IMG/VR virus record: IMGVR_UViG_3300028569_000020
Span: 30,543-94,542 of that record
Source of the DNA: a virus
Direction: 5' to 3' (one strand)
DNA: 64,000 nt
Positions 3,731 through 57,342 of this stretch are shown here, in pieces. The notes below the pieces were generated by a model that ran no database searches, had not been told where the DNA came from, and was given only the letters and a program-made list of their open reading frames with translations. Position numbers and translations under genes: made by a program. Positions within the stretch are counted from its first letter, which is position 1. Every line of letters begins with the position of its first letter.

Positions 3731-3763
3731 ACCCCTCGTATAAATAAATGCGAGGGGTTTTTT
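3731..3763 (+). terminator. Rho-independent terminator with late promoter in its loop
   Basis: Perfect 8-bp stem ACCCCTCG (3731-3738) / CGAGGGGT (3751-3758) with a 12-base loop, followed by six T (3758-3763). The loop contains TATAAATA. It terminates transcripts of the 3514 gene and anything reading through from upstream. Confidence 0.85.
3739..3746 (+). promoter_or_regulatory. T4-type late promoter octamer TATAAATA
   Basis: Exact TATAAATA in the hairpin loop. By analogy with T4, initiation would fall about 6 bases downstream (near 3752), inside the 3' arm of the hairpin. The late RNA would lack the 5' arm and could not fold the terminator. Drives the gene at 3777. Confidence 0.7.
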
Positions 3764-3776
3764 GTGGGAAAAATTA

Positions 3777-4109
3777 ATGGCGGCTATTCCTATTAACTTA
3801 GTAGTGGAGCAAAAAGCAGACTTTGAAGCAACATTTAATATTACTTCTGTAAACAATGTAGCTTTAAATTTAACTGGTTACACTGCAGAGTCTAAAATTA
3901 AAAAACATTATTCTTCAACTAGTGTAAATAACTTTGGTGTTACGTTTTTAAGTAGGCTCGATGGGAAGTTAAAACTATCTATGAGTAGTTTTGCTACTAG
4001 TCTTCTAAAACCAGGAAGATATTCATATGATATTTTAATTATTTCTTCTGGTGGTGTAAAAACTAGAGTTGTAGAAGGGCAAGTAACAGTAACTCCTGGT
4101 ATTAGTTAA
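3777..4109 (+). CDS. Virion protein, baseplate-upper/BppU-like domain
   Basis: 110 residues starting at ATG 3777 (MAAIPINLVVEQ). An upstream in-frame TTG at 3762 lies in the terminator T-tract and is rejected as a start. The pattern (QKADFEATF, LNLTGYTAESKI, LKPGRYSYDILI, VEGQVTVTPGIS) is the compact beta-sandwich arrangement seen in small phage baseplate/fibre-anchoring proteins with a BppU N-terminal-type fold. Its stop overlaps the next start (TAATG), so the pair is translationally coupled. The structural role is well supported by the late promoter and neighbours; the fold is inferred by eye. Confidence 0.65.
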   Translation: MAAIPINLVVEQKADFEATFNITSVNNVALNLTGYTAESKIKKHYSSTSVNNFGVTFLSRLDGKLKLSMSSFATSLLKPGRYSYDILIISSGGVKTRVVEGQVTVTPGIS

Positions 4110-4450
4110 TGGCAGAAGAATTTCAAGTTTCTATGAGTTATAATAATGTTACTAGCGTTACATTAGAATCATCAACAAACACACAAGTATCAACTTCATA
4201 TATCGTGGCAGATAACTTAGATGATTTAGGTAATGTAGATACTTCTGCATTAGATAAAATAGGAAATAGCACTAACCATTATGTTATGGTATATGACGGC
4301 GTTGCAAAAAAATATAAATTTGTAAATCCAGATGTTGTTTTATCTTCTGCAGCTACCGAACCTACTCAACCTGGATTACCTCAAGATTTTATAAATGAAT
4401 TAGATATAGTGATGGACAATAAAGTAAATCTTGATGGTGGAACGTTTTAA
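4109..4450 (+). CDS. Small virion/tail-fibre associated protein ending in DGGTF
   Basis: 113 residues, start overlapping the previous stop. It contains the fragment HYVMVYDGVAKKYKFVNPD, a short beta element frequent in marine T4-like fibre proteins. It ends in VNLDGGTF; the next gene, unrelated in its body, ends in LVDGGTF. The shared terminal DGGTF suggests a common docking or assembly tag for two partners of the same structure. No enzymatic motif. Function inferred from location and the shared tail only. Confidence 0.65.
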   Translation: MAEEFQVSMSYNNVTSVTLESSTNTQVSTSYIVADNLDDLGNVDTSALDKIGNSTNHYVMVYDGVAKKYKFVNPDVVLSSAATEPTQPGLPQDFINELDIVMDNKVNLDGGTF

Positions 4451-4461
4451 TTATTCTGTTT

Positions 4462-4469
4462 AATAAATA
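4462..4469 (+). promoter_or_regulatory. Late promoter octamer AATAAATA
   Basis: TAATAAATA in the 50-base spacer, 31 bases before the ATG at 4501. A leader with AGGA-type ribosome binding sequence follows. Confidence 0.55.
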
Positions 4470-4500
4470 GTAAAAGAAATAGTATCGATAGGATATTTAA

Positions 4501-5997
4501 ATGGCAGCACCAACAATTAAATTCAAAAGGGGCTTGCAAGCAAATTTGCCTGCGTTGGCAGCTGGAGAACCAGCATTCGTAAGCGATGAATATAATTTTT
4601 ACTTGGGTCTAGATGGCAACGCTAACACTAACAAATTTTTTGGTAGTTCTAGATATTGGGTAAAAGAGACTGCTTCGGTTGGGCAGTCTGTTAAATTGCA
4701 CTCAAAAACTGGTGCTGGCGGCGGCGGCAGTGTTTTATTAAAAGCTCCAGATACATCAGCAGTAGATACTACATATACTCTTCCTGCTGCTCCTACAGAA
4801 AATTATTTTCTCAAAACTAATGCTAGTGGAGTCCTTACGTGGGCAGAAGTTGTAAGTAACTTAACTATTGCAGCTGATAGTGGCACAGCGGATAGTGTCA
4901 ACACAGGAGAAACTATTACGTTTACTGGTGGAGAAGGTATTGATACCTCAGTAACAAATAACGTAATTACTATTGCTGCAGAGTTAGCAACTAGTGCGAA
5001 TGCTGGTGTTGCTACTTTCTCTGCCACAGACTTTCTGGTTACTGCTGGAGATGTAACTCTTGTACACGAAGCAGTTCAAGATATCGTTGGTGCCATGGTG
5101 GTCTCCAACTCCGAATCTGGTATTTCTGTAACATATGATGATCCTAATCATAAGTTAGATTTCAACGTTGCTGATTTTACCGTTACTCTTGCTGGTGATT
5201 TGAGTGGTAGCGTAACTATCACCGATCTTGCCAGTGGCACTCTAACAGCAACAATCGTAGCAAATTCAGTTGCTCTTGGCACTGATACAACTGGTCAATA
5301 CGCTTCTACAATTAGTGGTGGATCTGGATTAACCGCAACAGATGCGGGTGCTGATGATGCCACTGCTTACACAATTGCGGTTGGTGCTGGTGAAGGTATT
5401 ACAGTTAATGCTGATGACGTTGCTTTAAAGAACGGCACCAACTTAGTAAATAATACTGTAATCGGTTGGGACGATACTAATAATCAATTAGTAAACTCAC
5501 CAGTTACTTACAGTAGTAACGATGTTGCGATTGCTGGTGACTTAACTGTTACTGGTAACGATATTAAATCAAGTGGTGGCACAACTGCCCTGACTCTTTC
5601 TGGAGCAAACGTAACAGTCGCTGGTAATCTCACGGTTTCTGGTAGCACAACTACTGTTAACTCAACCATCACAACATTTGATGACCCTGTTTTAGAATTG
5701 GGTTTGGTTTCTGGTAGTGCGCCTACGACGGCAACCTCAATTGACCTTGGTTTGAGATTCCACTATTATGATTCTTCTGCTAAGACATCTTCGATGTTTT
5801 GGGATGGAAACGCTGGATTTATCTTTGTAGATGCTACAACGGAAGCTGCTGGACCACAACTAACAGGCACGTTGGCACATGTCCAACTAAAAGGTCTTTG
5901 GATGGGTGCTTACGGCACCGCAACCAATCAAGTTTTGAATAATAACAGCGGCACCTTCGAGTTAATCAATACACTCGTTGATGGCGGTACATTCTAA
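4501..5997 (+). CDS. Tail fibre protein with tropism-determinant-like N-terminus
   Basis: 498 residues. The N-terminus (IKFKRGLQANLPALAAGEPA, then LGLDG) matches the short beta domain found at the start of many phage fibre and tropism-determinant proteins. The middle is a low-complexity Ala/Thr/Val beta repeat (LSGSVTITDLASGTL type). The segment GNLTVSGSTTTVNSTITTFD is shared with the proteins at 6825 and 9860. It ends in LVDGGTF, like its upstream neighbour. GC and codon use look higher than in the flanking genes, consistent with high expression or a different origin. Likely a fibre shaft or collar fibre; host-receptor contact is inference. Confidence 0.75.
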   Translation: MAAPTIKFKRGLQANLPALAAGEPAFVSDEYNFYLGLDGNANTNKFFGSSRYWVKETASVGQSVKLHSKTGAGGGGSVLLKAPDTSAVDTTYTLPAAPTENYFLKTNASGVLTWAEVVSNLTIAADSGTADSVNTGETITFTGGEGIDTSVTNNVITIAAELATSANAGVATFSATDFLVTAGDVTLVHEAVQDIVGAMVVSNSESGISVTYDDPNHKLDFNVADFTVTLAGDLSGSVTITDLASGTLTATIVANSVALGTDTTGQYASTISGGSGLTATDAGADDATAYTIAVGAGEGITVNADDVALKNGTNLVNNTVIGWDDTNNQLVNSPVTYSSNDVAIAGDLTVTGNDIKSSGGTTALTLSGANVTVAGNLTVSGSTTTVNSTITTFDDPVLELGLVSGSAPTTATSIDLGLRFHYYDSSAKTSSMFWDGNAGFIFVDATTEAAGPQLTGTLAHVQLKGLWMGAYGTATNQVLNNNSGTFELINTLVDGGTF

Positions 5998-6013
5998 ATA
6001 TAAAGAGTAAATT

Positions 6014-6235
6014 ATGTCAAATGATGTTGAGATTGATTACGCTTCATTAATTCAAGTTTATCAAAAACGATTATCGGATTCGATACAACAAAATATTATT
6101 CTGGAGACTAGAGGTAATATTCTAACACAGACAGTAAATTCTCTCAGAGAAAAAATTACCGAGTTAGAAGAAAGTAAATCCACTAGTACAACGAAGAAAA
6201 AAACAGTAAATACTGTTTCAGAAGACTTTACATAA
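6014..6235 (+). CDS. Small coiled-coil protein
   Basis: 73 residues, mostly one amphipathic helix (LIQVYQKRLSDSIQQNIILE and then VNSLREKITELEES), then a Ser/Thr/Lys tail. No membrane segment or cysteine. It lies between two fibre genes and probably shares their transcript, 16 bases after the previous stop. A role in fibre assembly or trimerisation is plausible because of the coiled coil, but is not shown. Family not recognised. Confidence 0.65.
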   Translation: MSNDVEIDYASLIQVYQKRLSDSIQQNIILETRGNILTQTVNSLREKITELEESKSTSTTKKKTVNTVSEDFT

Positions 6236-6276
6236 AGTCTGCCCTCCGCTAAATAGCACCACTGAGAGGAAGCCAT

Positions 6277-6807
6277 ATGGCAGCACCTAAAATTAGAATT
6301 AAACGTACTGCTGTACCTGGGAAACTTCCTGAGGTGGGGCAGCTTGACTTAGGTGAACTAGCCATTAATACTTTTGAAGGTAAGTTATTCCTCAAGAAAA
6401 ATCGTGATGGCGTAGAATCGATTATTGATGTTGGCGGTGCTACTAGTCTCGCTGGCAATAGTGGCGAATTTCAATTCAATAATAATGGAGCATATGGTGC
6501 GTCAACCAATTTGTCTTGGGATGGATATTATGTAACTGCGACTAATTTAAAACTATTGGGCACTCTGACTGCTAGTGGCAGCACAGGGTCAGCGGGTAAT
6601 GTTCTAGCAACAACAGGAGCTGGAGTTCAATGGGTTGAGATTCCTGGTCTTGCTTTGTTTCCGACTGGCGATTACAATGCCAACTCAAATCCTAATAATC
6701 CGCTTGAAAACACAGTGGATGCTTTTGGTATATCTACAATTGCGTTTTGGGATTGTATGGGACCAGAAGGCAAAATATATCAAGTTGATTTAGAAACTAC
6801 AGTATAA
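6277..6807 (+). CDS. Short tail-fibre protein with tropism-determinant-like N-terminus
   Basis: 176 residues. The N-terminal 45 residues (KLPEVGQLDLGELAINTFEG, then KLFLKK) are a clear version of the phage fibre N-terminal domain also present at 4501. A glycine-rich linker (GSTGSAGNVLATTGAGVQWV) follows, then a unique C-terminal 60 residues with IAFWDCMGPEGKIYQVDL. A CTAAATA octamer-like element at 6249-6255 lies 21 bases before the start, and an AGAGGA ribosome site precedes the ATG. Structural role confident, binding target unknown. Confidence 0.7.
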   Translation: MAAPKIRIKRTAVPGKLPEVGQLDLGELAINTFEGKLFLKKNRDGVESIIDVGGATSLAGNSGEFQFNNNGAYGASTNLSWDGYYVTATNLKLLGTLTASGSTGSAGNVLATTGAGVQWVEIPGLALFPTGDYNANSNPNNPLENTVDAFGISTIAFWDCMGPEGKIYQVDLETTV

Positions 6808-6824
6808 TATTATAGGAAAAAATA

Positions 6825-8297
6825 ATGGCAACCCAAGTACAGTTTAGAAGAGGCACGGCAACACAAAATAATAATTTTACTGGTGTTGCTGGAGAGTTAT
6901 CAGTAAATTTAAGTAACTATTCTCTTCGTCTGCACGATGGTGTAACTGCTGGTGGTTATGAAATAGCACGGGCAAATATGTCCAACGCAAATTTCGGAGC
7001 GACTGTTTTACCTTCCAGCAATACTACTTACAATCTTGGATCTGCTTCATTTAAATTTGCTAATATTTTTTCACAAACATTTACTGGTGCTTTAGTTGGC
7101 AATGCTGATAGCGCAACTAAATTAATAACAGCAAGAAATATTAACGGTGTTGCTTTTGATGGCACCCAAAACATCACCATCGAAGCAGCAATTGATAAAA
7201 CTCTTACTATCGGTAATGGATTATCGGGCACACTATTTGATGGTAGTGCTGATGTAACGGTTGCTATTAAAAATGGAGATAATCTTTCACAAAATAAATT
7301 AACGAAGTGGAATGATACAGATAATCAATTTACTAATTCTATTATTGATGATGATGGTGCTTTAGCAACTGTATCTGGCAACTTAACTATTACTGGAAAT
7401 TTGCTTGTTAGTGGTCTTACTACTACTATTAGCACAACTGATTTAGCAGTTACTGATAAGGTAATTATTATTGGCAGCGGCACCACAACAGCAGCAGCTG
7501 CTGATGGATCTGGTTTTAATATTGGCACCACTGGCGTAACACTGACATATAATCATGGTTATACTTCGTGGTCATCAACGGAAAGTTGGAATCTTGTTGA
7601 AGGAAAAACTTATAAGATTAATGGCACTACTGTAATAGGGTCAACTGCCCTTGGTAGTAATATTGTTTCATCCAGTCTAACATCGGTAGGAACAATCACA
7701 ACAGGAGTTTGGAATGCTACGATAGTATCTCCTACCTATGGTGGCACAGGAGTAAATAACGGCACTAAAACGATTACTCTTGGGGGTGATTTTACTCATA
7801 GCGGTGCTCATACTTTAGGATTAACAACCATCGCAAATACCAGTTTAACTTTACCAACAACTGGCACTCTTGCTACTTTAAATAATGTAGAAACTTTAAC
7901 AAATAAAACTTTAGATAATCCAACTTTATTGAATCCAACATTAGGAAATGCTGCTGTAACTACAGTATTACTTAATGAAGTTGCTGTTTATGCGTCCGCT
8001 GCAAACACTACAACAGCAACAACGCAATACACTATTCTTCCTCTTTCTGCGACTACATACTCTTCAGTGGAATATTTGATTCAAGCAAAATCTGGAAGCA
8101 ACACACACGTATCAAAACTTCTTTTGATACACAACGGCACTGACGTAACAATAACTGAGCAAAATAGTTTAACATCTGATGTATACTTAGCATCATATTC
8201 AGCTGATATTAATTCTACCAATATTCGTCTTTTAGTTACACCAGCATCAGCAACTGCTACTACTGTCAAAGTAGTAGCAACTGCTATTAAATCATAA
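6825..8297 (+). CDS. Tail fibre protein, modular
   Basis: 490 residues. It starts with an RRGTATQNNNFTGVAGELSV module typical of phage fibre N-termini. It continues with the module VSGLTTTISTTDLAVTDKVI shared with the 9860 protein. Next come the YGGTGVNN and LTNKTLDNPTLLNPTLG repeats that recur in many caudovirus fibres. It ends with a domain (VEYLIQAKSG, KLLLIHNGTDV, ASYSADI) shared with the C-terminus of the protein ending at 3470. The gene is thus a mosaic of modules also found in its neighbours. No chaperone or peptidase motif was seen. Confidence 0.75.
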   Translation: MATQVQFRRGTATQNNNFTGVAGELSVNLSNYSLRLHDGVTAGGYEIARANMSNANFGATVLPSSNTTYNLGSASFKFANIFSQTFTGALVGNADSATKLITARNINGVAFDGTQNITIEAAIDKTLTIGNGLSGTLFDGSADVTVAIKNGDNLSQNKLTKWNDTDNQFTNSIIDDDGALATVSGNLTITGNLLVSGLTTTISTTDLAVTDKVIIIGSGTTTAAAADGSGFNIGTTGVTLTYNHGYTSWSSTESWNLVEGKTYKINGTTVIGSTALGSNIVSSSLTSVGTITTGVWNATIVSPTYGGTGVNNGTKTITLGGDFTHSGAHTLGLTTIANTSLTLPTTGTLATLNNVETLTNKTLDNPTLLNPTLGNAAVTTVLLNEVAVYASAANTTTATTQYTILPLSATTYSSVEYLIQAKSGSNTHVSKLLLIHNGTDVTITEQNSLTSDVYLASYSADINSTNIRLLVTPASATATTVKVVATAIKS

Positions 8298-8300
8298 ATA
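8293..8300 (+). promoter_or_regulatory. Late promoter octamer CATAAATA
   Basis: Overlaps the stop codon of the previous fibre gene and lies 32 bases before the ATG at 8333. A GGGGAGAG ribosome site follows. Confidence 0.55.
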
Positions 8301-8332
8301 TTTCTAACACTATACGGGGAGAGTGATCCGTT

Positions 8333-9061
8333 ATGGCTACGTACAACAAAGAATTTACCGTAAAAAACGGGCTGGTTGTTGAAAATAACAACGCAGTAAA
8401 ATTAAGCACCAATGTAGGCACACTTAGATTTGTGTCTCTTAAAGCTCCATCCAGTTTAACTGGAAATTATACACTAACATTTCCAGTTGATGATGGCGCA
8501 GCAAATGAGATGCTCATTACCGATGGTAATGGTATACTTTCTTGGGGAAAAGTTAATACCATTAACATGTTACCTAACTCGGTAACTCCAACAATTTTAG
8601 AAAATACTGGAGATTTTATAATAAATTCTTTAAGTTTAAATAGAATAAAAGCAACTGGTGATATCATTATTGACCCAAATAATGATAACGGCGTTACGGG
8701 TATAGTGGAGATTAAAGGAGATCTTATTGTTAGAGGCAGTAATAATATTTCTGCAGGAGCAAGTTATAATATAGAGACACAAGATTTTTTAGCACAAGTA
8801 TCAGGTAGATACCTTGTAAACACATCAGTATATTCAGAAGATATTACTGTAACTTTACCCGTATCTCCTAATGTAGGAAATACTATTTCTTTTGCCGACA
8901 CGGCAAATACATGGGACGCTTATAATGTTATTTTAGATGCAGGGTTAGGCAAAACATTTCAAGATAAAACTGGCGATGTAGATAGCCCATATATTTTAGA
9001 CGTTGCTGGTGTTGCGGTAACAATTGTTTGGACAGGATCATTGTGGAAAGTATTTGCATAA
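8333..9061 (+). CDS. Tail-fibre/virion structural protein
   Basis: 242 residues. The N-terminus (YNKEFTVKNGLVVENNNAVK) and the block SLTGNYTLTFPVDDGAANEM followed by LITDGNGILSWGKV are typical of marine T4-like fibre proteins; the latter reappears as LPAAPTENYFLKTNASGVLT followed by W in the 4501 protein. The C-terminal half (ITVTLPVSPNVGNTISFADT) has a beta-helix or beta-prism character. No catalytic signature. Transcribed from the octamer at 8293; two further octamers follow it. Confidence 0.7.
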   Translation: MATYNKEFTVKNGLVVENNNAVKLSTNVGTLRFVSLKAPSSLTGNYTLTFPVDDGAANEMLITDGNGILSWGKVNTINMLPNSVTPTILENTGDFIINSLSLNRIKATGDIIIDPNNDNGVTGIVEIKGDLIVRGSNNISAGASYNIETQDFLAQVSGRYLVNTSVYSEDITVTLPVSPNVGNTISFADTANTWDAYNVILDAGLGKTFQDKTGDVDSPYILDVAGVAVTIVWTGSLWKVFA

Positions 9062-9073
9062 GTAAAAAATTAT

Positions 9074-9099
9074 TATAAATACTTTTGACAATATAAATA
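9074..9099 (+). promoter_or_regulatory. Tandem late promoter octamers
   Basis: Two exact TATAAATA copies, 9074-9081 and 9092-9099, 18 bp apart start to start, in the 72-base spacer before the gene at 9134. It is the only tandem pair in an intergenic spacer of this window. Confidence 0.6.
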
Positions 9100-9133
9100 A
9101 AATTGATTTAGATAACTCATACTGGGGTTTTAG

Positions 9134-9799: not shown

Positions 9800-9800
9800 T

Positions 9801-9825
9801 TGCCAATCTTGGCACAAACGTTTTT
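9801..9825 (+). terminator. Weak hairpin with T-run
   Basis: TGCCA / TGGCA short stem (9801-9814) followed seven bases later by TTTTT (9821-9825). The short stem and the gap to the T-run make this marginal; it may be attenuating or may do nothing. Confidence 0.25.
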
Positions 9826-9859
9826 CTATCCAACACGGATTCAATAAGGGAATTAAAAA

Positions 9860-15043: not shown

Positions 15044-15082
15044 TAAACATTCAATATAACTACTATACGGAGAAATAAAAAA

Positions 15083-16962: not shown

Positions 16963-16986
16963 TTAATTATACATACTACATTTTAT

Positions 16987-17640: not shown

Positions 17641-19230
17641 ATGGCTTGGAAATCAGATAAAATTGTTATTATTGGAGGAGGATCTGCAGGATGGATGAGC
17701 GCATCAACATTAGTTAGATTCTTTCCAAATAAAGATATTACGGTTATAGAAAGTCCCGATATTCCAACAGTTGGAGTTGGAGAAAGTACTCTAGGATTTA
17801 TTAGAGCATGGACATCTTCTTTAGGAATTGACGAAAAAGATTTTATGAAGCACACTGATGCCTCATATAAATTAAGTATTAAATTTACAGATTTTTATAA
17901 AAAAAATTCAGGAGGATTTCATTATCCATTTGGTACTCCACATTTCACTGATAAAAATTTTCTTGGATTGCGAGATTGGGATTTAAAAAAACATTATTAT
18001 CCTGATACTCGAGTACAAGATTATTGTAGAACATTTTTTCCTGCAATGGCTTTGATAGAAAATAATAAAATTAGTCAAAATGAAGGTGGAGAATTTGGAG
18101 CATTTAGATTTGACAATGACGTAGCATATCACTTTGATTCTGTTAAATTTTCAATTTGGCTACGAGATAATTATGCTTTACCCAGAGGAGTAAAACATAT
18201 TAAAGCAACAGTTAAAAACGTTGTTACTGATGATAGTGGGGTAAAAGAAGTTATTCTTGATAGCGGAGATGTAATCACCGCTGATTTATTTGTTGATTGC
18301 ACTGGATGGAAAAGTATGCTTTTGGGCGATGCTTTAAAAGTTCCTTTCACTTCATATAATGATATTATTCCAAATAATAGAGCATGGGCAACTCAGGTGC
18401 CTTATATAAATCCAGAAGAAGAAATGGAACCATATACAAATTGCACAGCAATTGATAATGGTTGGGTTTGGAATATTCCACTATTTACCAGAATTGGTAC
18501 AGGATATGTTTATAGCGACAAATATATTTCTAAAGAAGATGCCTTAAATCAATTTAAAAATCATCTTAAAACTAAGATGACAATTGTTGATGCCAATAGA
18601 ATTACTGATGATTTAAACTTTAAAGATATTGAAATGAGAATTGGTATTCATGATAGACCATGGGAAAAAAATGTAGTTTCTATTGGATTAGCATGTGGAT
18701 TTATAGAACCATTAGAAAGTAATGGTCTTCTTACAATACACGAATTTTTATTAAAATTAGTAAAATATTTAAACAGAGAAATTATTTCTCAATGGGATAT
18801 TGATAGTTATAATACTGGCACAAAAAGATTTTTCAGAACTTTTGCTGAATTTGTTGCTTTACATTACGCATTAAGTGCAAGAAACGATACTGAATATTGG
18901 AATGATGTCACTAGTAAAAGTTTTTCTCCATCTATGGTTGATTTAGTACCTTCAATGGTAGAAGGATTTGCGGATATGTCATCTAAAAAATTTGATGTTA
19001 GCGATTTTAATAATACTGCAGGAATCCATTGTTTAGCTCATGGGATGAGATATGATACTATTGATGAATCAGTAATTGCACAATGGTCACATTATAATAA
19101 GCACGTAGATTATAAAAAAATAACAGATGAATTAATTCCTATATGGAATAAAGAGCAAAGACAATGGAAGCGAGAAGCAGAAGATTGTCCCACTGTTTAT
19201 GAATATTTGAAAAATAATATTCATAATTAA
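17641..19230 (+). CDS. prnA: FAD-dependent tryptophan halogenase family protein
   Basis: 529 residues, full length for the family. FAD-binding GGGSAG at residues 12-17. The lysine of the halogenase active site is K77 in ASYKLSIKF. The diagnostic WxWxIP motif is WVWNIP at 275-280. FIEPLES at 354-360 carries the glutamate (E359) equivalent to the PrnA catalytic Glu. All residues needed to form HOCl and a lysine chloramine are therefore present. A flavin reductase would have to come from the host. Substrate may be tryptophan or another indole; phage members are uncharacterised as far as I know. It follows the 2OG oxygenase in the same promoter-terminator unit. More AT-rich than the neck genes downstream. 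Confidence 0.88.
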   Translation: MAWKSDKIVIIGGGSAGWMSASTLVRFFPNKDITVIESPDIPTVGVGESTLGFIRAWTSSLGIDEKDFMKHTDASYKLSIKFTDFYKKNSGGFHYPFGTPHFTDKNFLGLRDWDLKKHYYPDTRVQDYCRTFFPAMALIENNKISQNEGGEFGAFRFDNDVAYHFDSVKFSIWLRDNYALPRGVKHIKATVKNVVTDDSGVKEVILDSGDVITADLFVDCTGWKSMLLGDALKVPFTSYNDIIPNNRAWATQVPYINPEEEMEPYTNCTAIDNGWVWNIPLFTRIGTGYVYSDKYISKEDALNQFKNHLKTKMTIVDANRITDDLNFKDIEMRIGIHDRPWEKNVVSIGLACGFIEPLESNGLLTIHEFLLKLVKYLNREIISQWDIDSYNTGTKRFFRTFAEFVALHYALSARNDTEYWNDVTSKSFSPSMVDLVPSMVEGFADMSSKKFDVSDFNNTAGIHCLAHGMRYDTIDESVIAQWSHYNKHVDYKKITDELIPIWNKEQRQWKREAEDCPTVYEYLKNNIHN

Positions 19231-19233: not shown

Positions 19234-19270
19234 AAAACCCTTCTTATAAATACATAAGAAGGGTTTTTTT
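19234..19270 (+). terminator. Strong terminator with late promoter at its apex
   Basis: Perfect 14-bp stem 19234-19247 / 19254-19267 (AAAACCCTTCTTAT and complement) with a six-base loop and seven T (19264-19270). It ends the halogenase unit. Confidence 0.9.
19245..19252 (+). promoter_or_regulatory. Late promoter octamer TATAAATA across the hairpin apex
   Basis: Exact octamer spanning the last stem bases and the loop. Predicted start near 19258 would place AGAAGGG of the 3' arm in the leader of gp13 and remove the 5' arm from the RNA. Same arrangement as at 3731-3763. Confidence 0.75.
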
Positions 19271-32319: not shown

Positions 32320-32337
32320 TTCAGTTTGTTGAATTCA

Positions 32338-32364
32338 AAGACTCCCGAAAGGGGGTCTTTTTTT
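32338..32364 (+). terminator. Terminator after gp23
   Basis: AAGACTCCC / GGGGGTCTT stem (32338-32346 / 32351-32359, one G-U) with a GAAA loop and seven T (32358-32364). Confidence 0.9.
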
Positions 32365-32369: not shown

Positions 32370-32377
32370 AATAAATA
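32370..32377 (+). promoter_or_regulatory. Late promoter octamer AATAAATA before gp3
   Basis: Begins six bases after the gp23 terminator T-tract and 21 bases before the gp3 ATG, so transcription stops and restarts within 15 bases. Confidence 0.6.
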
Positions 32378-38914: not shown

Positions 38915-38921
38915 TTTATCA

Positions 38922-38944
38922 GGGGTTGCTTCGGCACCCCTTTT
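38922..38944 (+). terminator. Terminator overlapping a promoter
   Basis: GGGGTTGC (38922-38929) / GCACCCC (38934-38940), TTCG tetraloop, one bulged T, then TTTT. The -35 of the next promoter lies inside its stem and loop. Confidence 0.75.
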
Positions 38945-38954
38945 GTCGTATAGT
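38926..38954 (+). promoter_or_regulatory. Sigma70-type promoter within the terminator
   Basis: TTGCTT (38926-38931), 17-bp spacer, TATAGT (38949-38954). Expected start near 38961, leaving a leader of about 16 bases before ATG 38977. Confidence 0.6.
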
Positions 38955-45920: not shown

Positions 45921-45965
45921 ATTTGTAGAGAATACCGCCTCAGTTATTTTCAATGTAAAACAATA

Positions 45966-45971
45966 TATAAT
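45966..45971 (+). promoter_or_regulatory. Possible -10 box before hsp20
   Basis: TATAAT in ATATATAATATG. The best -35 candidates (GTTATT or TTATTT) are weak. It lies 58 bases before the hsp20 start. Confidence 0.35.
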
Positions 45972-46029
45972 ATGAAAGAGATGCTTTCGAGGTCTCTTAT
46001 TAACACTCGCTTATTAAAGGAGAACAATT

Positions 46030-46479: not shown

Positions 46480-46493
46480 AAGAAATGTATTAT

Positions 46494-46501
46494 AATAAAT
46501 A
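46494..46501 (+). promoter_or_regulatory. Late promoter octamer AATAAATA
   Basis: Within TATAATAAATA (46491-46501), the only intergenic late octamer inside the replication block. A terminator follows 34 bases later, so its transcript would be short unless it reads through. Confidence 0.45.
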
Positions 46502-46506
46502 ATAAC

Positions 46507-46579
46507 GGCTACCCCTTTTCTATCGTTGTCGCTTGGAGTTGATGCTGGCAAAATCCAGCCTTGACTCCCTTTTCTTTTT
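46507..46579 (+). ncRNA. Candidate short late RNA ending in the 46.5 kb terminator
   Basis: Bounded by the predicted start of the 46494 octamer and a strong hairpin/T-tract terminator, about 73 nt, with no ORF. The 5' part (to about 46534) is single-stranded by eye and C/T-rich. Could be a regulatory RNA or only a leader. Not matched to any known family. Confidence 0.3.
46535..46579 (+). terminator. Terminator overlapping a promoter
   Basis: GGAGTTGATGCTGG (46535-46548) pairs with CCAGCCTTGACTCC (46555-46568) with two G-U pairs and one mismatch; loop CAAAAT; then CTTTTCTTTTT-type tract to 46579. Confidence 0.75.
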
Positions 46580-46589
46580 ATGATATAAT
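46561..46589 (+). promoter_or_regulatory. Sigma70-type promoter in the terminator 3' arm
   Basis: TTGACT (46561-46566), 17-bp spacer, TATAAT (46584-46589) with an extended TG at 46581-46582. The -35 is entirely inside the hairpin's 3' arm. Drives the 46611-46918-gp43 group. Confidence 0.75.
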
Positions 46590-46610
46590 AAGAGCACCCT
46601 TTAAAATATT

Positions 46611-49768: not shown

Positions 49769-49774
49769 GGTATT

Positions 49775-50782: not shown

Positions 50783-52158
50783 TGAGTGAAAGAATCGAAA
50801 CAACAATTCTGCGTAATCTTCTCTGCAACGAACCGTTTTATAGAAAGGTTGTTCCTTTTGTAAAACCAGATTACTTCAATGAGATACACGAAAAGATAAT
50901 TTACGAAGAGGTTTGGAATTTTGCGAATAACTATGAGATGCTACCAACAGCAGAAGTTCTTATTATTAATTTAGAAAGCAGGAAAGATTTAAATGAAGAA
51001 GTATATCAAAATGCTGTTAAGACGATTCAAGGTCTTACCAATGCTCCAGTCGAACACAACTGGTTGCTTGACACCACAGAAAAGTGGTGTAAAGACAGAG
51101 CCATCTATCTCGCACTCTTGGAGTCTATCAAAATCGCAGATGGAGGCGATAGCAAAGTTTCACCAGATGCGATCCCCGCCATACTCCAAGAGGCCCTGGC
51201 AGTATCTTTCGACGAACATGTAGGGCATGACTACGTACAAAATGCAGAAGAAAGATATGAATTTTATCATTTAAAAGAATCTAAAATACCTTTTGATTTA
51301 GAAAAATTTAATTCTATCACAAAGGGTGGTATTCCCAATAAAACATTAAACGTTGTGCTTGCTGGCACTGGTGTTGGTAAGTCATTGTTTATGTGCCATT
51401 GTGCTGCCAGTTGTTTACAACAAGGCAAAAATGTTTTATACATTACTCTTGAAATGGCAGAAGAAAAAATTGCTGAGCGGATTGATGCTAATCTGTTGAA
51501 TGTAAATATTAAAGATATTGGTGATATACCAGAAAGTATCTTTACTTCTCGTATTCGTGAAATTGGTAAGAAAACACAAGGCCGTCTTATCATTAAAGAA
51601 TATCCAACCGCTGCAGCTCATGCGGGTCATTTTAAAGGATTACTAAATGAATTGTCATTAAAGAAATCATTTAAACCTGATATTATTTTTATCGATTATT
51701 TAAACATCTGCTCTTCGTCTAGATACAAAGGCGCTATTGTAAACTCATACACATATGTCAAGGCGATTGCAGAAGAACTTAGAGGAATGGCAGTCGAACA
51801 CAACGTGCCCATTGTCACTGCCACACAAACCACTAGGAGTGGTTTTGGTAATAGCGATGTCGATCTCACTGATACCAGTGAATCTTTTGGCTTGCCAGCT
51901 ACTGCTGACTTTATGTTTGCTCTCATCTCTACAGAGGATCTGGAAAAAAATGGTCACATTTTAGTTAAACAATTAAAAAATCGTTATAACGATCCTACCT
52001 TCAATAAAAGATTTTTGATTGGAGTTGACAGATCCAAGATGAAGTTGTATAATGTAGATGTTGCTGATACATCTTCGATTATTATTGATGATGAAGAATA
52101 TGAAGAGCAACCAAAAGCAAAAAACAAATTTAGCAAGTTTACCGAATTTATTGTATGA
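50782..52158 (+). CDS. gp41: Replicative DNA helicase gp41
   Basis: 458 residues (T4 475). DnaB-type: N-terminal helical region, Walker A AGTGVGKS at 194-201, catalytic glutamate in LYITLEMAEEK, Walker B DIIFIDYLNIC, and the TQTTRSGFG sensor. It unwinds DNA 5'-3' and works with primase gp61 (gene at 59512, separated here from gp41). Overlaps mazG by ATGA. A higher-GC patch is seen near nt 51070-51230. Confidence 0.95.
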   Translation: MSERIETTILRNLLCNEPFYRKVVPFVKPDYFNEIHEKIIYEEVWNFANNYEMLPTAEVLIINLESRKDLNEEVYQNAVKTIQGLTNAPVEHNWLLDTTEKWCKDRAIYLALLESIKIADGGDSKVSPDAIPAILQEALAVSFDEHVGHDYVQNAEERYEFYHLKESKIPFDLEKFNSITKGGIPNKTLNVVLAGTGVGKSLFMCHCAASCLQQGKNVLYITLEMAEEKIAERIDANLLNVNIKDIGDIPESIFTSRIREIGKKTQGRLIIKEYPTAAAHAGHFKGLLNELSLKKSFKPDIIFIDYLNICSSSRYKGAIVNSYTYVKAIAEELRGMAVEHNVPIVTATQTTRSGFGNSDVDLTDTSESFGLPATADFMFALISTEDLEKNGHILVKQLKNRYNDPTFNKRFLIGVDRSKMKLYNVDVADTSSIIIDDEEYEEQPKAKNKFSKFTEFIV

Positions 52159-52565
52159 CAAAGCAAATCGATCTAGATAAGTATACTCAGTTTGTGGATA
52201 GCACTACAAGTTATCCATCTAAAAGCAACGAAGAAATGATTGCTCGTATACAGCAACTAAACGAACGCGATGTTCCTATTGCTCGTCTTATGACTGCTGC
52301 TGTGGGGATGTCTGCTGAAGCAGGAGAGTTTACTGAGATTATTAAGAAGTTAGTTTTTCAAGGTAAAGAATTGACAGAAGAAAATAGAATTCATTTACTT
52401 AAAGAATTAGGTGATGTGTATTGGTATTTCACTCAAGCGATGCTAGGACTGGAGGTTGATTTGAATGAAGTGGTATTAACGAATGTTACAAAACTTTCTG
52501 CACGATATCCTGATGGTGCTTTCGACGTATTCCGTTCGGAAAACCGTGCAGACGGAGACATTTGA
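52155..52565 (+). CDS. mazG: MazG-type nucleotide pyrophosphohydrolase
   Basis: 136 residues. Magnesium-binding E55-x2-E58 (SAEAGEFTEIIKK) and E84-x2-D87 (KELGDVYWYF), the MazG pattern; single-domain form as in cyanophages. It hydrolyses (d)NTPs to monophosphates and has been proposed to act on dNTPs or ppGpp. Last gene of the replisome run; promoter and terminator follow immediately. Confidence 0.92.
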   Translation: MTKQIDLDKYTQFVDSTTSYPSKSNEEMIARIQQLNERDVPIARLMTAAVGMSAEAGEFTEIIKKLVFQGKELTEENRIHLLKELGDVYWYFTQAMLGLEVDLNEVVLTNVTKLSARYPDGAFDVFRSENRADGDI

Positions 52566-52574
52566 TGCTATAAT
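52566..52574 (+). promoter_or_regulatory. Extended -10 promoter before the fusion gene
   Basis: TGCTATAAT (52566-52574) with GTGCAG 17 bp upstream (52546-52551) as a poor -35. Predicted start near 52581 lies inside the 5' part of the terminator hairpin that follows. Confidence 0.45.
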
Positions 52575-52575
52575 G

Positions 52576-52608
52576 GGGGTAACCTAAATAGAGGACAACC
52601 CCTTTTTT
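52576..52608 (+). terminator. Terminator spanning the promoter start
   Basis: GGGGT (52576-52580) / ACCCC (52598-52602) with an inner CCT/AGG (52583-52585 / 52592-52594), then six T (52603-52608). Ends mazG transcripts. Confidence 0.7.
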
Positions 52609-52613
52609 CGTAG

Positions 52614-54389
52614 ATGGCTCAACAGAATAAACACCTAGAGCACTTAGAAGACGAGTTAATCAATTTTGGTTATAGCGGATATGTAGCTTCTAAGGACCTC
52701 ATACAGAATTTCATTGACGAGCTTGGTGGCCGTCCTACTGGTCGTGTGACCGTTACCACCAAGTGGGATGGCGCCCCTGCTATTGTTTGTGGTATTGATC
52801 CAGAATCCAAACAGTTTTTTGTAGGCACCAAGTCAGTATTTAATAAGAAAGAACCGAAGGTAAACTTCACTGACGAAGATATTGAAAAAAATCATGGAGA
52901 GATACCTGACCTTGCTAAGAAGCTTAAGCAATGTTTAAAGTATTTTCCAGAGCTTAAAATAAAAGGAGTGATACAGGGAGACCTTCTTTTTACTGATGAA
53001 GATGTAGCAAGTAAAACTATTGATGGGGAGCGTTACCATACTGCTACGCCAAACACGCTAACCTATGCTTGGCCTGCTGATAGCAAGTTAGGTAAGGCAG
53101 TAAATTCTGCTAAGATTGGAGCAGTGTTTCATACTTATTATAGTGGAGCTGGTCCTATCAATAATATGAATGCTGGATTTGGCGTGAGTCAGTTAAACCT
53201 GAAATCCACTCGTCATGTGTTTTTAGCATCTGCTACGATGGATAACATCAGTGCTAACTCTGGATTAACTCCTGCTGAAGAGCGCACCTTAAAATCTGTT
53301 ATCTCTGTAGGAAATCGTAATGTTGATACTGCTAAACCTTTTCTTGAATTGGTAGCACAGGAAGCAACTAAGCAGTTTACGATAGGATATACGATGAAGC
53401 GGTTTACTAACAGCTACATCAAAGAAGGAAAGAAGATTAATAATGTTAATCGTTTTATGGAGGGATTTGAAAAGGCATTTAAAAAATCTCTCGTTGAAAA
53501 AGTAGATGATTTAAAGTCTGAAAAATCTAAGAATGAATACCGAGAAAAGCTAGCGAATGGTCTTCAATTACTTGGAGCAAATCAGCGGTCGTTTAAGGCA
53601 TTCATTGTTATCTACAATTCATTTACTAACGCTAAAAATCTTATTAACAATAAACTTGCTGGTCTGAGTGACACTAAAGTATTTCTGCGTAGTGGTGATA
53701 CTTTTGTAGTTACCAAACCAGAAGGATTTGTGGCGATTGTTGACGGTCAAGCAATTAAAATTGTTGATCGCTTGGAATTTTCTCGTGCTAACTTCACGCT
53801 GGAGAAGTCTTGGAAACCTCCTACTACTTCTGGTGCTAAGATTGCTGCGTTTACTTTTGGTCGTTTTAATCCTCCTACGACGGGACATGAGTTATTGATA
53901 AATAAAGTCAAGGAGTTTGCCGCTGGGAATGACTACTTTGTTTTTCCTAGTCATACTACTGACAAGAAAGGTAAGAATCCTTTGACCGCAGAGCAAAAAG
54001 TATATCTTATGAAAGAGATGTTTCCTTCTCATAAGGATAACATCATTTTAGATGAAGCTATTCGTGACGCTATCAAAGCTCTCAAGTGGCTTGAAGATAA
54101 AGGATATACCGATGCTATCTTTGTAGTTGGTTCTGATCGTGTGACCGCATTTCAATTTATCAAACAATATAATGGTAAAGATTACAATATGAATACTGTT
54201 GAGATTAGAAGTGCTGGTGAGCGTGATCCAGATGCCGATGATGTATCTGGTATGTCTGCAAGCAAGATGAGAAAGGCAATCGTTGAAGCAGATATGGTAA
54301 CTTTTGAGAGTGGATTGTCAAGCAGTGTTAAAAATAATAGTGAATTTAAGACGATGTATTATCAAGCAGTGTTGGGGGGAATGTCCTAA
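52614..54389 (+). CDS. Fusion of ligase-like nucleotidyltransferase and NMNAT-like nucleotidyltransferase (DUF6267-like N-terminus)
   Basis: 591 residues, two enzymes in one chain. Residues about 1-400 resemble the covalent nucleotidyltransferase fold of ATP ligases and capping enzymes: K50-W-D-G53 as motif I (TTKWDGAPAIV), VIQGDLLF (119-126) as motif III, PEGFVAIVDG (369-378) as IV and IKIVDRLEF (381-389) as V. Residues about 408-591 are a HIGH-type transferase: FGRFNPPTTGH (415-425), VVGSDRV and SASKMRKA (548-555), as in NMN adenylyltransferases. Substrates are unknown. It leads a co-transcribed cassette to 57059. Confidence 0.75.
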   Translation: MAQQNKHLEHLEDELINFGYSGYVASKDLIQNFIDELGGRPTGRVTVTTKWDGAPAIVCGIDPESKQFFVGTKSVFNKKEPKVNFTDEDIEKNHGEIPDLAKKLKQCLKYFPELKIKGVIQGDLLFTDEDVASKTIDGERYHTATPNTLTYAWPADSKLGKAVNSAKIGAVFHTYYSGAGPINNMNAGFGVSQLNLKSTRHVFLASATMDNISANSGLTPAEERTLKSVISVGNRNVDTAKPFLELVAQEATKQFTIGYTMKRFTNSYIKEGKKINNVNRFMEGFEKAFKKSLVEKVDDLKSEKSKNEYREKLANGLQLLGANQRSFKAFIVIYNSFTNAKNLINNKLAGLSDTKVFLRSGDTFVVTKPEGFVAIVDGQAIKIVDRLEFSRANFTLEKSWKPPTTSGAKIAAFTFGRFNPPTTGHELLINKVKEFAAGNDYFVFPSHTTDKKGKNPLTAEQKVYLMKEMFPSHKDNIILDEAIRDAIKALKWLEDKGYTDAIFVVGSDRVTAFQFIKQYNGKDYNMNTVEIRSAGERDPDADDVSGMSASKMRKAIVEADMVTFESGLSSSVKNNSEFKTMYYQAVLGGMS

Positions 54390-56161
54390 TGTCACAATTT
54401 AATTTAAGAAAAGAAACAAGAGATGTTTCTAATTTTATAGATATGGATATTGTAGCATTAAAGTTTAGGCGTATTCATGGAATGATTCGTGTAGCTGCTG
54501 CTAATGCATTCAATAGTCATTATGGAGAAGTAAAAGGATTTGAATATGAAATTGAAGGTGGTGACGGTATAACAGATTCCTCACCTATATTAGAAATTAA
54601 TAAAAAATTTGAAGGTGGCAGATCAACATCTTTGAAATATAAAATTACTTGTGATAATGGAATTCCAGAGTATTGTGATTTGTATTTTAGAACGCCGAGA
54701 GCAGATTTCATTAATCATATGATTTCCTTTATCAATAAAAGAAATGATTTGAAGAATGCAGTTGGTATTACAAACGTGGAATTGAAGACAGAAGATGGGG
54801 GCAAAAATCCTACTTTGTTTATTAAAATGTTACACAGCTATCCTGGATTGGATAAGAAAGGGAAAAAAGTTACCAAGTATTCAACTATCAATTTAAACTT
54901 TTCTCTTAAGTATGCTGGGAAAGATAATAATGCTAAGGCACTTGCCACACTTAAACCAAAGGATGTTGAACCTAAAATTGTTGATGTTTGGTTGACTCCA
55001 GAATTGTTGTATGATAATATAATATCTTATGTTGATGGCAATAAATTTCCATCACAAAGCAATTCATTAAAACAATCTTATAAGAATATTATTATTGATG
55101 CGTATACTAATAAATCTTTGAAAGATAAAGTTGGTATAGCGGCAGATTTATCTTCAGAATTTTTTGAAGTATTATCTGCATTGAAATTAAGTATGCTATT
55201 GAAAGCAAATGTCACAGAATTAAAACAAACACTTGGATTGTCAGATGATGAGACAGTCAAATCAATAGAAGTTAAAATACCAGCAGCAGCAAACGAAGCA
55301 TTGATAGATTATTTTGTTGCAGTGAATGGTAACAAGGAGCATCCATTGCGGATAAGCGTCAAATCAAAAGTGCGGGGATCTTCAACTTCTACAGTTAAAT
55401 TTACAACCGCTTTTGTAAATGAAAGAGAAGTATTACAATGGTTTAATAATATTAAATCAACAGTAACAAAAAATAAACAACTTGGTCAATATACCATTGC
55501 TTCATCTGCTTTGAATTATGATAAAAAGTATTCTGGTAGATTAACAATGTATCCTATCAAAGGATTGCTTCGTCTTTTAACTGGACCTAAATCATCTACA
55601 GTAAGACAAGATTTAAACAGAGTTTTAGATTTGAAAGGATTTACTATTTCTGATTTTATTGATTTACTTAAAAAGACAGATAAAAAAATGGGCACACTAA
55701 AAGTAAATTACGAACCATTTGATAATATTTTTTTAAAAGATTTAGATTTACTAACTAAAGTTAAAACATTACTGGCGCTTAACATTTATGATGAAGGGAG
55801 CAAGAAAAAAAAATTGATTGAATCAATATCATTATCGCAGAAAGAAGCTGCTAAAAAAAATAATGGCAAGTATCCTTTCGCTGTAAATAATTTAGCTTTA
55901 CTATGCGAAAGAGTGCTGGTAGAAACTTCAAAGAAAGACGGACAAACTAAATTAAATTTTTATAAAATGTTTTATGACCAAGTGCTTACAAAAAATCAAG
56001 TAGCATATGCTATGACAAGTAGAGACACTAAAGGTGACGTAGTAAAATTAGAATACTCATTTGTTAGTGCAGTTGACTTTGGTAAATATAAAAACTGGAT
56101 TGCACTAAGAAGTAAAAATTATGGCAACAATATGCAAGACGCACTAGGAATGGCAGTATGA
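54389..56161 (+). CDS. Large uncharacterised protein, possible nuclease fold
   Basis: 590 residues, not recognised. Begins MSQFNLRKETRDVSNFIDMD. It contains FFEVLSALKLS (258-268), then LIDYFVAVNG (305-314) and RISVKSKVRGSS (321-332). An E...D...(S)xK spacing like this recalls PD-(D/E)xK nucleases with the central acid replaced, but it is weak evidence. No membrane segment; Lys/Asn-rich; AT-rich. It overlaps the fusion gene by TAATG and the next gene by ATGA, so the three are produced together. Could also be a virion-packaged protein. Confidence 0.55.
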   Translation: MSQFNLRKETRDVSNFIDMDIVALKFRRIHGMIRVAAANAFNSHYGEVKGFEYEIEGGDGITDSSPILEINKKFEGGRSTSLKYKITCDNGIPEYCDLYFRTPRADFINHMISFINKRNDLKNAVGITNVELKTEDGGKNPTLFIKMLHSYPGLDKKGKKVTKYSTINLNFSLKYAGKDNNAKALATLKPKDVEPKIVDVWLTPELLYDNIISYVDGNKFPSQSNSLKQSYKNIIIDAYTNKSLKDKVGIAADLSSEFFEVLSALKLSMLLKANVTELKQTLGLSDDETVKSIEVKIPAAANEALIDYFVAVNGNKEHPLRISVKSKVRGSSTSTVKFTTAFVNEREVLQWFNNIKSTVTKNKQLGQYTIASSALNYDKKYSGRLTMYPIKGLLRLLTGPKSSTVRQDLNRVLDLKGFTISDFIDLLKKTDKKMGTLKVNYEPFDNIFLKDLDLLTKVKTLLALNIYDEGSKKKKLIESISLSQKEAAKKNNGKYPFAVNNLALLCERVLVETSKKDGQTKLNFYKMFYDQVLTKNQVAYAMTSRDTKGDVVKLEYSFVSAVDFGKYKNWIALRSKNYGNNMQDALGMAV

Positions 56162-56442
56162 AATCACTCAAAGAATTATTACAAATATCTAAACAGAAAG
56201 CATACATGCTCGGCAATATGTTTGCTGAAGGCGATATTATTAAAAACACAAACGGACAAGTAGGAAAGATTCATAGACGTGGAGTTAACTATGTTATTGC
56301 TGTCACTGAAGAAGGCGAGATGTTTAGAACTTGGGTGAAGGATATTAAAGAACATTGTGGGTGTGAAGAAAAAAAAGAAACTACAGCACAAGATACAATC
56401 AAGACATTTATAAATAAGAATAAAAGGCAGCCTAAAAAATGA
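56158..56442 (+). CDS. Small basic protein with KOW/SH3-like strand pair
   Basis: 94 residues. Central segment MFAEGDIIKNTNGQVGKIHR followed by RGVNYVIAVTEEGEMFRTWV has the beta pattern of a small barrel with a conserved G-x-V-G-K-I turn. Then HCGCEEKKE with two Cys, and a Lys-rich tail. A late-octamer match TATAAATA (56409-56416) lies in its 3' end before the next gene. Recurs in marine T4-like phages as a hypothetical; function unknown. Confidence 0.6.
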   Translation: MKSLKELLQISKQKAYMLGNMFAEGDIIKNTNGQVGKIHRRGVNYVIAVTEEGEMFRTWVKDIKEHCGCEEKKETTAQDTIKTFINKNKRQPKK

Positions 56443-57059
56443 AACCTCTTCACCACGATGATTACTCCAAAACATTAATGGAGAGAGCTATTGCTAATAT
56501 GACTGACATGTGGTCTTATGGCATAAACGAAGACGATAAAAAATGTTGCAATAAAACTGGTGCTGGTAGTTCATGCCCGATGCATGGAGATGCAGATTGC
56601 AATTCTTCTAAAAAAAATAGGAAAGAAGAATTTGAAATTTTAGAATATCATGAAATTGAAGTTGATGGGGAAACCATTATTATTGAAAAAACTAAAATGG
56701 ATGGCGTTGATGATAACGGATCTAAGACATGCTGGAAAGGATATAAGAAGCAAGGCACCAAAAGTAAAGGTGGTAAAGAAGTTAATAATTGTGTGAAATC
56801 TGGATACGAACCAGAAGGAGATACGATTGAAGAAAAGAAAGATATGCCTGGTGGTCAAGAGAAGATTGATGCTAACAAAAATGGTAAGGTAGACGCTCAT
56901 GACTTTGCAATTCTTCGCAATAAAAGAAGCAAAAAAACAGTAAAGGAAATGTGGGAGCTTGCTGTAGAAGCAAAAGCACAAATTGAAGTGATGCCCGAGT
57001 TAGATGATAAAGATCCAGCTAACGTAAAGAAGAAAGAAAAGAAAGAAAAAAGTTGTTAA
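56439..57059 (+). CDS. Cysteine-rich protein with EF-hand-like loop
   Basis: 206 residues. N-terminal cluster CCNKTGAGSSCPMHGDADC (five Cys, one His) suggests a metal site. Next is TCWKGYKKQGTKSKGGKEVN followed by NC, a motif I know from several cyanophage proteins. Residues DANKNGKVDAHDF fit an EF-hand or dockerin calcium loop (D-x-N-x-N-G-x-V-x3-D). The C-terminus is Lys/Glu-rich. Last gene of the 52.6-57.1 kb cassette. Function unknown; calcium binding is inferred from the loop. Confidence 0.65.
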   Translation: MKPLHHDDYSKTLMERAIANMTDMWSYGINEDDKKCCNKTGAGSSCPMHGDADCNSSKKNRKEEFEILEYHEIEVDGETIIIEKTKMDGVDDNGSKTCWKGYKKQGTKSKGGKEVNNCVKSGYEPEGDTIEEKKDMPGGQEKIDANKNGKVDAHDFAILRNKRSKKTVKEMWELAVEAKAQIEVMPELDDKDPANVKKKEKKEKSC

Positions 57060-57070
57060 GATATCGAAAT

Positions 57071-57078
57071 AATAAATA
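57071..57078 (+). promoter_or_regulatory. Late promoter octamer AATAAATA
   Basis: In the 49-base spacer, 30 bases before ATG 57109, followed by a CGGAG ribosome site. Confidence 0.55.
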
Positions 57079-57108
57079 GAATCGGTCCACCCCATAACGG
57101 AGATTATT

Positions 57109-57288
57109 ATGTCTATCGCAATCGCATGGTTAGTTGCTAATCAAGCACTTGTAGCAACTGTATTATTTGCAGTTTCTGAAGCACTTGGTGCGAATTCAAA
57201 AATCAAGGCAAACGGTATTCTTTCACTTCTTATTATTCAGGGTCAAAAACTTCTGAAAGATAAAGGCGCAAAAGATTTTACCCCTTGA
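57109..57288 (+). CDS. 59-residue hydrophobic protein
   Basis: Begins MSIAIAWLVANQALVATVLF and continues AVSEALGANSKIKANG, then LSLLIIQGQKLLK, ending KDKGAKDFTP. One long hydrophobic segment (about residues 3-25) and a second weaker one (about 37-46) with a Lys-rich tail would fit a small membrane protein. Late promoter plus ribosome site before, strong terminator after, so it is a single-gene transcript. Comparable short proteins occur in T4-like cyanophages. A holin-like role is possible only by shape and timing; no lysin gene is adjacent. Confidence 0.6.
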   Translation: MSIAIAWLVANQALVATVLFAVSEALGANSKIKANGILSLLIIQGQKLLKDKGAKDFTP

Positions 57289-57310
57289 TATTCGTCTAGC
57301 ATATATTGAG

Positions 57311-57335
57311 GGGATGCTTCGGCATCCCTTTTTTT
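57311..57335 (+). terminator. Terminator abutting a late promoter
   Basis: GGGATGC (57311-57317) / GCATCCC (57322-57328), TTCG tetraloop, seven T (57329-57335). The last T is the first base of the next octamer. Confidence 0.92.
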
Positions 57336-57342
57336 ATAAATA
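57335..57342 (+). promoter_or_regulatory. Late promoter octamer TATAAATA
   Basis: Exact octamer beginning in the terminator T-tract; AGGGAGA ribosome site precedes ATG 57379. Confidence 0.7.

Follow-up and report, generated by a model that had tools for sequence, protein, structure and literature searches.

Each of the seven transcription terminators recognised in a 64-kb stretch of viral DNA (nt 30,543-94,542 of the 94,542-nt record IMGVR_UViG_3300028569_000020, referred to below as the window) has a promoter fused to it or nested with it, and the seven sites, designated A to G, are probably composite stop/restart units in which an intrinsic terminator of the upstream gene and a promoter of the downstream gene occupy the same 30-60 bp; from the sequence, a probability of about 0.75 can be assigned to this reading. 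Judged by its gene content and by matches to cyanophage records, the window is DNA of a T4-like cyanophage (Kyanoviridae-type), whose host is presumably a cyanobacterium.

Structure of the composite units

All seven sites comprise a stable G+C-rich hairpin followed directly by a run of T residues (T-tract) and located downstream of a gene, as expected of an intrinsic terminator, with folding energies of -11.4 to -18.7 kcal/mol (Table 1). The promoter element is the exact T4-type late octamer TATAAATA at A, B, and G and a variant of it at C; structural genes follow B, C, and G, and the late-octamer matches in the window number seven on the + strand and none on the - strand. The remaining sites carry sigma-70 elements, matching the consensus at 11 of 12 positions with a TG extension at E, represented by an extended -10 at F, and matching at 8 of 12 positions at D, where the layout is nevertheless kept in relatives. 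The original prediction, made from this DNA alone, had placed seven terminators here, each touching a promoter, and this is borne out by sequence and folding; the late octamer that it assigned to four sites is exact at 3739, 19245, and 57335, whereas at 32370 only the variant AATAAATA is found. It had also described the octamers of A and B as overlapping the terminators or lying next to them, which understates the arrangement, as the octamer sits inside the hairpin. This nesting, overlooked at first, is the mechanistically key point, since a start at the predicted place beyond the 5' arm would exempt the new transcript from termination.

T4-type late transcription starts ca. 6 nt past the octamer and depends on gp55, gp33, and gp45 (PMC1524935, PMC2988020). 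When late starts are placed at the octamer end + 6 according to this T4 rule (octamer at -13 to -6, PMC1524935), the predicted starts at all seven sites, late and sigma-70 alike, lie beyond the whole, or almost the whole, of the 5' arm. RNA computed from each predicted start folds at 0 to -3.4 kcal/mol, compared with -11.4 to -18.7 kcal/mol for the incoming RNA, and the new RNA is therefore unable to form the terminator. Thus, with folding computed and starts predicted, the terminator should act on an incoming polymerase and spare one starting within the unit.

We infer that the hairpins terminate transcription in vivo and that the promoters fire at these starts. A polymerase arriving from upstream would synthesise both arms of the hairpin and the U-tract and terminate, while one recruited by the embedded promoter would start inside the 3' arm (A, B, and the late start of F), just past the 5' arm (the early start of F) or after the whole hairpin (C, D, E, and G), and its transcript, devoid of the 5' arm, would be exempt from the terminator. 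The promoter elements re-use bases of the terminator in several ways, with the octamer in the loop, the T-tract running into the octamer, or the -35 in the loop or the 3' arm and the T-tract as spacer. The likely benefit, in a genome with hardly any spacer DNA, is that upstream read-through ends and, with it, promoter occlusion and polar expression. Cyanobacteria lack Rho (PMC13289151), so clean transcript ends in such a host are expected to depend largely on intrinsic signals.

Table 1. Predicted terminators and promoter elements of sites A to G (window positions; ORF, open reading frame; ATG, start codon) and comparable units of phage isolates
Site	Feature	Position	Strand	Remarks
A	Terminator hairpin ACCCCTCGTATAAATAAATGCGAGGGGT, then TTTTTT	3731-3758	+	-18.7 kcal/mol
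A	Late octamer TATAAATA	3739-3746	+	Spans 5' arm and loop; predicted start 3752 in 3' arm; ORF ATG 3777
B	Terminator hairpin AAAACCCTTCTTATAAATACATAAGAAGGGTTTT and T-tract	19234-19267	+	-17.2 kcal/mol
B	Late octamer TATAAATA	19245-19252	+	Shared by end of 5' arm and loop; predicted start 19258 in 3' arm; gp13 ATG 19277
C	Terminator, tandem type	32337-32360	+	After gp23 (major head protein); -15.5 kcal/mol
C	Variant late octamer AATAAATA	32370-32377	+	10 nt past stem; predicted start 32383
D	Terminator AGGGGTTGCTTCGGCACCCCT and TTT	38921-38941	+	After gp46; -11.4 kcal/mol; T-tract TTTTG, shortest of the seven
D	-35-like TTGCTT	38926-38931	+	Inside hairpin; T-tract as spacer
D	-10 TATAGT	38949-38954	+	17 nt after TTGCTT
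E	Terminator GGAGTTGATGCTGGCAAAATCCAGCCTTGACTCC	46535-46568	+	-17.9 kcal/mol
E	-35 TTGACT	46561-46566	+	In 3' arm; T-tract as spacer
E	Extended -10 TGATATAAT	46584-46589	+	TTGACT-17-TATAAT with TG, 11/12; phrog_431 ATG 46611 downstream, gp43 cluster
F	Extended -10 TGCTATAAT	52566-52574	+	Directly before hairpin; predicted start ~52581, past G-rich 5' arm
F	Terminator GGGGGTAACCTAAATAGAGGACAACCCCT and TTTTTT	52575-52603	+	Between MazG and cytidyltransferase genes; -11.4 kcal/mol
F	Loop motif CTAAATA	52584-52590	+	Absent from the original prediction
G	Terminator GAGGGGATGCTTCGGCATCCCTTT	57308-57331	+	T-tract continuous with octamer; -15.0 kcal/mol
G	Late octamer TATAAATA	57335-57342	+	Fused to T-tract; predicted start 57348; head protein (phrog_613) ATG 57379
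S-PM2	Unit AATCCCTATCTGATAAATACAGGTAGGGATT-TTT	Junction at 66,786		Upstream of ORF beginning like gp13
DSL-LC03	Unit AAGCTCCCTAAATACAGGGAGCTT-TTTT			
Bellamy	Unit AGAGGAACCCTTGACAGGGTTCCTTT-TTTACTATATAAT			TTGACA in loop

Conservation in related loci

For comparison, 425 related loci were fetched and their homologous junctions read; the counts of terminators cover 426 related loci, comprising 5.0 Mb of DNA with 302 distinct intergenic terminators, and are not phylogenetically independent. The relatives retain the layout while the stem sequences vary. At site G the order hairpin-TTTT-TATAAATA is conserved in 19/19 distinct junctions, which have 15 different 5' arms. Swapping the arms between relatives lowers their pairing from 1.00 to 0.66 at A, from 1.00 to 0.74 at B, from 0.99 to 0.77 at G, and from 1.00 to 0.85 at C, indicating that the 5' and 3' arms change together.

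Site A lies between the tail-fibre region and phrog_1084, and its octamer-in-loop is kept in all nine junctions whose downstream protein is at least 68% identical; in 60 more distant junctions the hairpin is absent and the late motif is retained in 58. At site B, between the halogenase gene and that of the neck protein gp13, the hairpin and the late motif are found together in 16 of 44 relatives, in three layouts: loop-nested, with the octamer at the 5' edge (L097, L098), and tandem (L099-L101). L091, L092, L095, and others have the octamer and the AAGAAGGG leader and no 5' arm. The requirement for an identical unit in every relative was rejected on account of these nested, tandem, edge, and hairpin-less forms of B and of the octamer without a hairpin in the distant relatives of A. 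At the same gp13 junction (window 19254-19267, relatives L091-L116), the leader AAGAAGGGT following the late octamer is conserved even without the hairpin, ca. 14 nt before the start codon, and could serve as a late leader or an unusual ribosome-site element.

A hairpin with a late-type octamer 5-12 nt past the stem is present at site C in 41 of 50 relatives; the late consensus of S-PM2 is NATAAATA (PMC2984593). At site D the hairpin and a TATAGT-type -10 are retained in 29 of 36 junctions, and the relatives of site E carry TTGACC, TTGACG, or TTGCCC within the hairpin. The loop motif CTAAATA of site F, which in Aeh1 forms the core of late promoters (PMC1524935), occurs in 21 of 23 junctions, and a hairpin was detected in 16 of the 23.

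Co-location of terminators and promoters

In the terminator zones of the related loci TATAAATA occurs 41 times and its 55 other letter permutations 48 times in sum (some of these being overlaps of the octamer itself), which corresponds to rates relative to intergenic DNA of 2.14 and 0.27, respectively. A terminator was scored as positive when it had a promoter match whose start falls past the middle of the 5' arm. A promoter of this geometry accompanies 151 of 245 co-directional terminators and only 2 of 46 located before convergent genes (Fisher p = 3e-14), as well as 36 of 61 distinct pairs of upstream and downstream genes. The permutation and convergent-gene controls led to the rejection of chance co-location in AT-rich gaps. 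The terminator scanner missed site A, where a called ORF overlaps the hairpin and the intergenic mask excludes it, and site E, whose stem is bulged; both were checked by hand and folded.

The starts predicted from exact octamers are distributed unevenly around the terminators: within the hairpin, the 3' arm has 8 and the 5' arm 3, all of these in its second half and none in its first, and outside it 3 lie in the 30 nt upstream and 39 in the 30 nt downstream. A promoter ahead of the hairpin, whose own RNA would be terminated, is thus rare (3 strict octamers against 50). TATAAT peaks 10-19 nt past the stem, a position that puts the -35 in the hairpin. Late motifs nested in the loop or an arm were found at 15 gene pairs comprising 10 upstream and 8 downstream families, with MazG as one upstream family preceding five different downstream families. 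Of 201 exact octamers in gaps between co-directional genes, 50 are joined to a strong terminator; the median intergenic length is 75 nt with a fused unit and 51 nt with the octamer only, so that the terminator adds ca. 24 nt. At this cost, the idea of a compact stop/restart unit that needs no spacer DNA is borne out, as are its recurrence in the genome and its conservation among relatives. A T-rich stretch as a constituent of every late promoter was rejected, since the sequence upstream of late promoters has 4.5/6 T with a terminator and 2.5/6 without.

Among named cyanophages, co-directional terminators with a promoter amount to 3/6 in Syn9, 5/15 in S-PM2, 5/10 in P-SSM4, 5/15 in Bellamy, 5/8 in DSL-LC03, and 5/8 in S-CAM4 (total 28/62), and among other T4-like phages to 4/10 in T4, 6/22 in RB49, 6/37 in KVP40, and 7/32 in Aeh1 (total 23/101); for terminators before convergent genes the values are 1/13 in the former six and 1/50 in the latter four. 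Units that are nested or have the -35 in the hairpin were found in the isolates S-PM2, DSL-LC03, Bellamy, and S-CAM4; several of the automated 'IN' labels in T4, RB49, and Aeh1 were not inspected singly and were not relied on. The tandem form is a general T4-like trait, with nesting seen mainly in cyanophages. It is an even bet that self-exempting terminators form a general class used by cyanomyoviruses, with late or sigma-70 promoter elements built from the hairpin, each serving as a one-way gate that clears away the arriving polymerase and gives the same site over to a new start, and with the flanking genes exchanged around the unit over evolution.

The claim that all terminators touch a promoter holds for the seven in the window and fails elsewhere: at least one in the rest of the record, at 108-139, has no obvious promoter, and the proportions of 28/62 in the cyanophages, 23/101 in the other T4-like phages, and 36/61 among junction types leave many terminators without an adjacent promoter, which tells against 'all' but not against the unit. 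Similarly, the proposed insulation of temporal classes is only partly supported: it fits site G, the one clear early-to-late step, but not A and B, which look late-late, nor D to F, which are of the early type; the units would insulate transcription units rather than temporal classes.

Alternative explanations

Several points weigh against reading A to G as composite units. At site B the unit is not obligatory, as several relatives hold the promoter and the 3'-arm sequence without a hairpin. The position of the late start is taken over from T4, and CTAAATA is a candidate late promoter by analogy with Aeh1 (PMC1524935) and by its enrichment here. The nearly invariant stem of site F makes covariation uninformative (0.97 for own and 0.96 for swapped arms), and its T-tract is short in relatives. 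The promoter of site D, TTGCTT-17-TATAGT, is weak by itself, sigma-70 calling was loose, though bounded by the convergent-gene control, and kinship among the genomes inflates the counts.

That the terminators are set on promoters so that RNA polymerase retained on DNA re-initiates at once after intrinsic termination is conceivable, though doubtful. E. coli RNA polymerase diffuses after termination and re-initiates in vitro, which should vary with the terminator-promoter distance, and a functional link between neighbouring terminators and promoters has been proposed (PMC6978380, PMC11347151); in the units described here the distance is near zero. However, the phenomenon was demonstrated for the E. 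coli enzyme and not for the cyanobacterial or gp55 polymerase, its diffusion range of ca. 1 kb makes zero distance unnecessary, and self-exemption and compactness already account for the layout. The bacterial elements are also separate, up to ca. 1 kb apart, whereas here they share bases. Capture of a just-terminated polymerase by the underlying promoter is possible but speculative.

It is unlikely that the nested hairpins A, B, and F are translational, hiding the ribosome-binding site in read-through RNA and leaving late transcripts, devoid of the 5' strand, free for translation. An exact precedent exists in T4 gene e and I-TevI, where the hairpin forms only in RNA initiated upstream, the late promoter lies in its 5' part, and the ribosome site is hidden (PMC2988022; PMC3014915); the hairpins of soc, segB, and Aeh1 mobE likewise yield late transcripts without the 5' strand. 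Moreover, the AAGAAGGG sequence of the 3' arm of B is kept even without a hairpin, so that a role in ribosome binding or as a leader is possible. The hairpins of A and B end 9-18 nt before the ATG, and the GAAGGG in the 3' arm of B ends ca. 14 nt before it, far for a Shine-Dalgarno sequence, and is followed by the T-tract. Unlike the T4 hairpins, which mask the ribosome site, those of the cyanophage have a T-tract (6-7 T directly after the stem at A and B), which should stop transcription of the upstream gene, and they have sigma-70 promoters built in as well, at D, E, and F. At site B, relatives with the 5' arm have more T in the tract after the 3' arm than those without it (p = 0.009, nine vs nine, not phylogenetically corrected), which favours termination over masking alone; the two functions are not mutually exclusive.

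Ordinary packing, in which terminators and promoters touch by mere proximity in short gaps, is improbable and already largely refuted for the nested and G-type units: an intergenic median of ca. 53 nt, the many terminators of relatives without promoters, and the need of any operon boundary for a terminator-then-promoter order speak for it, but composition-matched motifs are depleted (0.27) in the very zones where TATAAATA is enriched (2.14), loop octamers and in-hairpin -35s recur at many junctions, the continuity of T-tract and octamer at G withstands the change of stems in 19/19 relatives, and only 2/46 convergent junctions are positive.

Relation to known systems

The composite reading of A to G has its closest tandem counterparts in T4 between genes 8 and 9, between genes 35 and 36, and in the alt region, where a hairpin, a T-tract, and TATAAATA follow within 3-7 nt, which is the layout of site G. 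Terminators after gene 23 and between genes 35 and 36 are conserved in T4-like phages (PMC1524935). Sites A, B, and F differ from these tandem units in having the late motif within the hairpin loop, an arrangement that is clear in cyanophages, with one comparable hairpin in KVP40 (CTAAATA loop). Tandem units and the logic of a promoter within a hairpin, known from the T4 ribosome-site hairpins, are thus not new, while the nested terminator form is. The accessible parts of two cyanophage surveys listing both elements make no remark on their overlap (PMC3037559, PMC2984593), and no description of terminator-nested promoters in cyanophages was found in the open PMC literature, with prior notice elsewhere possible.

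With a promoter built into about half of the co-directional terminators, the units offer a simple, testable rule by which to read the transcription units of viruses that abound in the sea and in fresh water, and they would account for a stop and a start at one spot in a near-spacerless genome infecting hosts without Rho. They also provide a ready system for asking whether a terminated polymerase is re-used by the underlying promoter, and could serve in cyanobacterial gene circuits as a compact self-exempting design.

Other features of the window and related loci

Profile searches of the window found genes for gp13, a head closure protein, gp23, a UvsW-type helicase, gp46, Hsp20, gp43, and MazG, and nearly all the genes lie on the + strand. 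Cyanophage records match the window at 60-80% identity, 288 of them covering its right-hand 24 kb. No transfer RNA genes are present in the 64 kb, and a known Rfam RNA at the terminators was rejected, with no match at the gathering threshold in the window and weak chance hits at site E only. A tryptophan halogenase-like gene (17641-19230; phrog_2928, 1e-142) is located in the structural region; Syn9 has two annotated halogenases too.

The terminator of site E (window 46500-46568) comprises a conserved element, ATCGTCGCCGC or close to it, followed by an apical hairpin CTGG-N6-YCAG. The element was found at terminator-like hairpins in ca. 16 cyanophage loci (1 for a scrambled control), among them Syn9 (L439:14136), S-PM2 (L457:4975), and Bellamy (L485:16418), and further in L183, L191-L193, L206, L207, L235, L240, L249, L272, L324, and L327. 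Neither the window copy nor the Syn9 copy matches Rfam; the element may be an RNA that binds a protein or a ligand.

Upstream of Hsp20 in relatives (e.g. L171) there is a class of 31 terminators, 29 of which have no recognised adjacent promoter; either they are associated with a different promoter type or they play another role. Outside the window, at G000:C1:4243-4275 of the record (in L009), a sigma-70 promoter matching at 12/12 positions (TTGACA-17-TATAAT) has its -35 in the loop of a GGGG/CCCC hairpin and lies next to a GGGGCACCCCTACGGGG hairpin present in two copies and to further pairs of hairpin and promoter that lack T-tracts. Finally, at the junction downstream of MazG (window 52566 onward; L172, L175, L215, L222) relatives carry members of at least five different gene families after the nested unit, which gives the junction the look of a socket for gene exchange.

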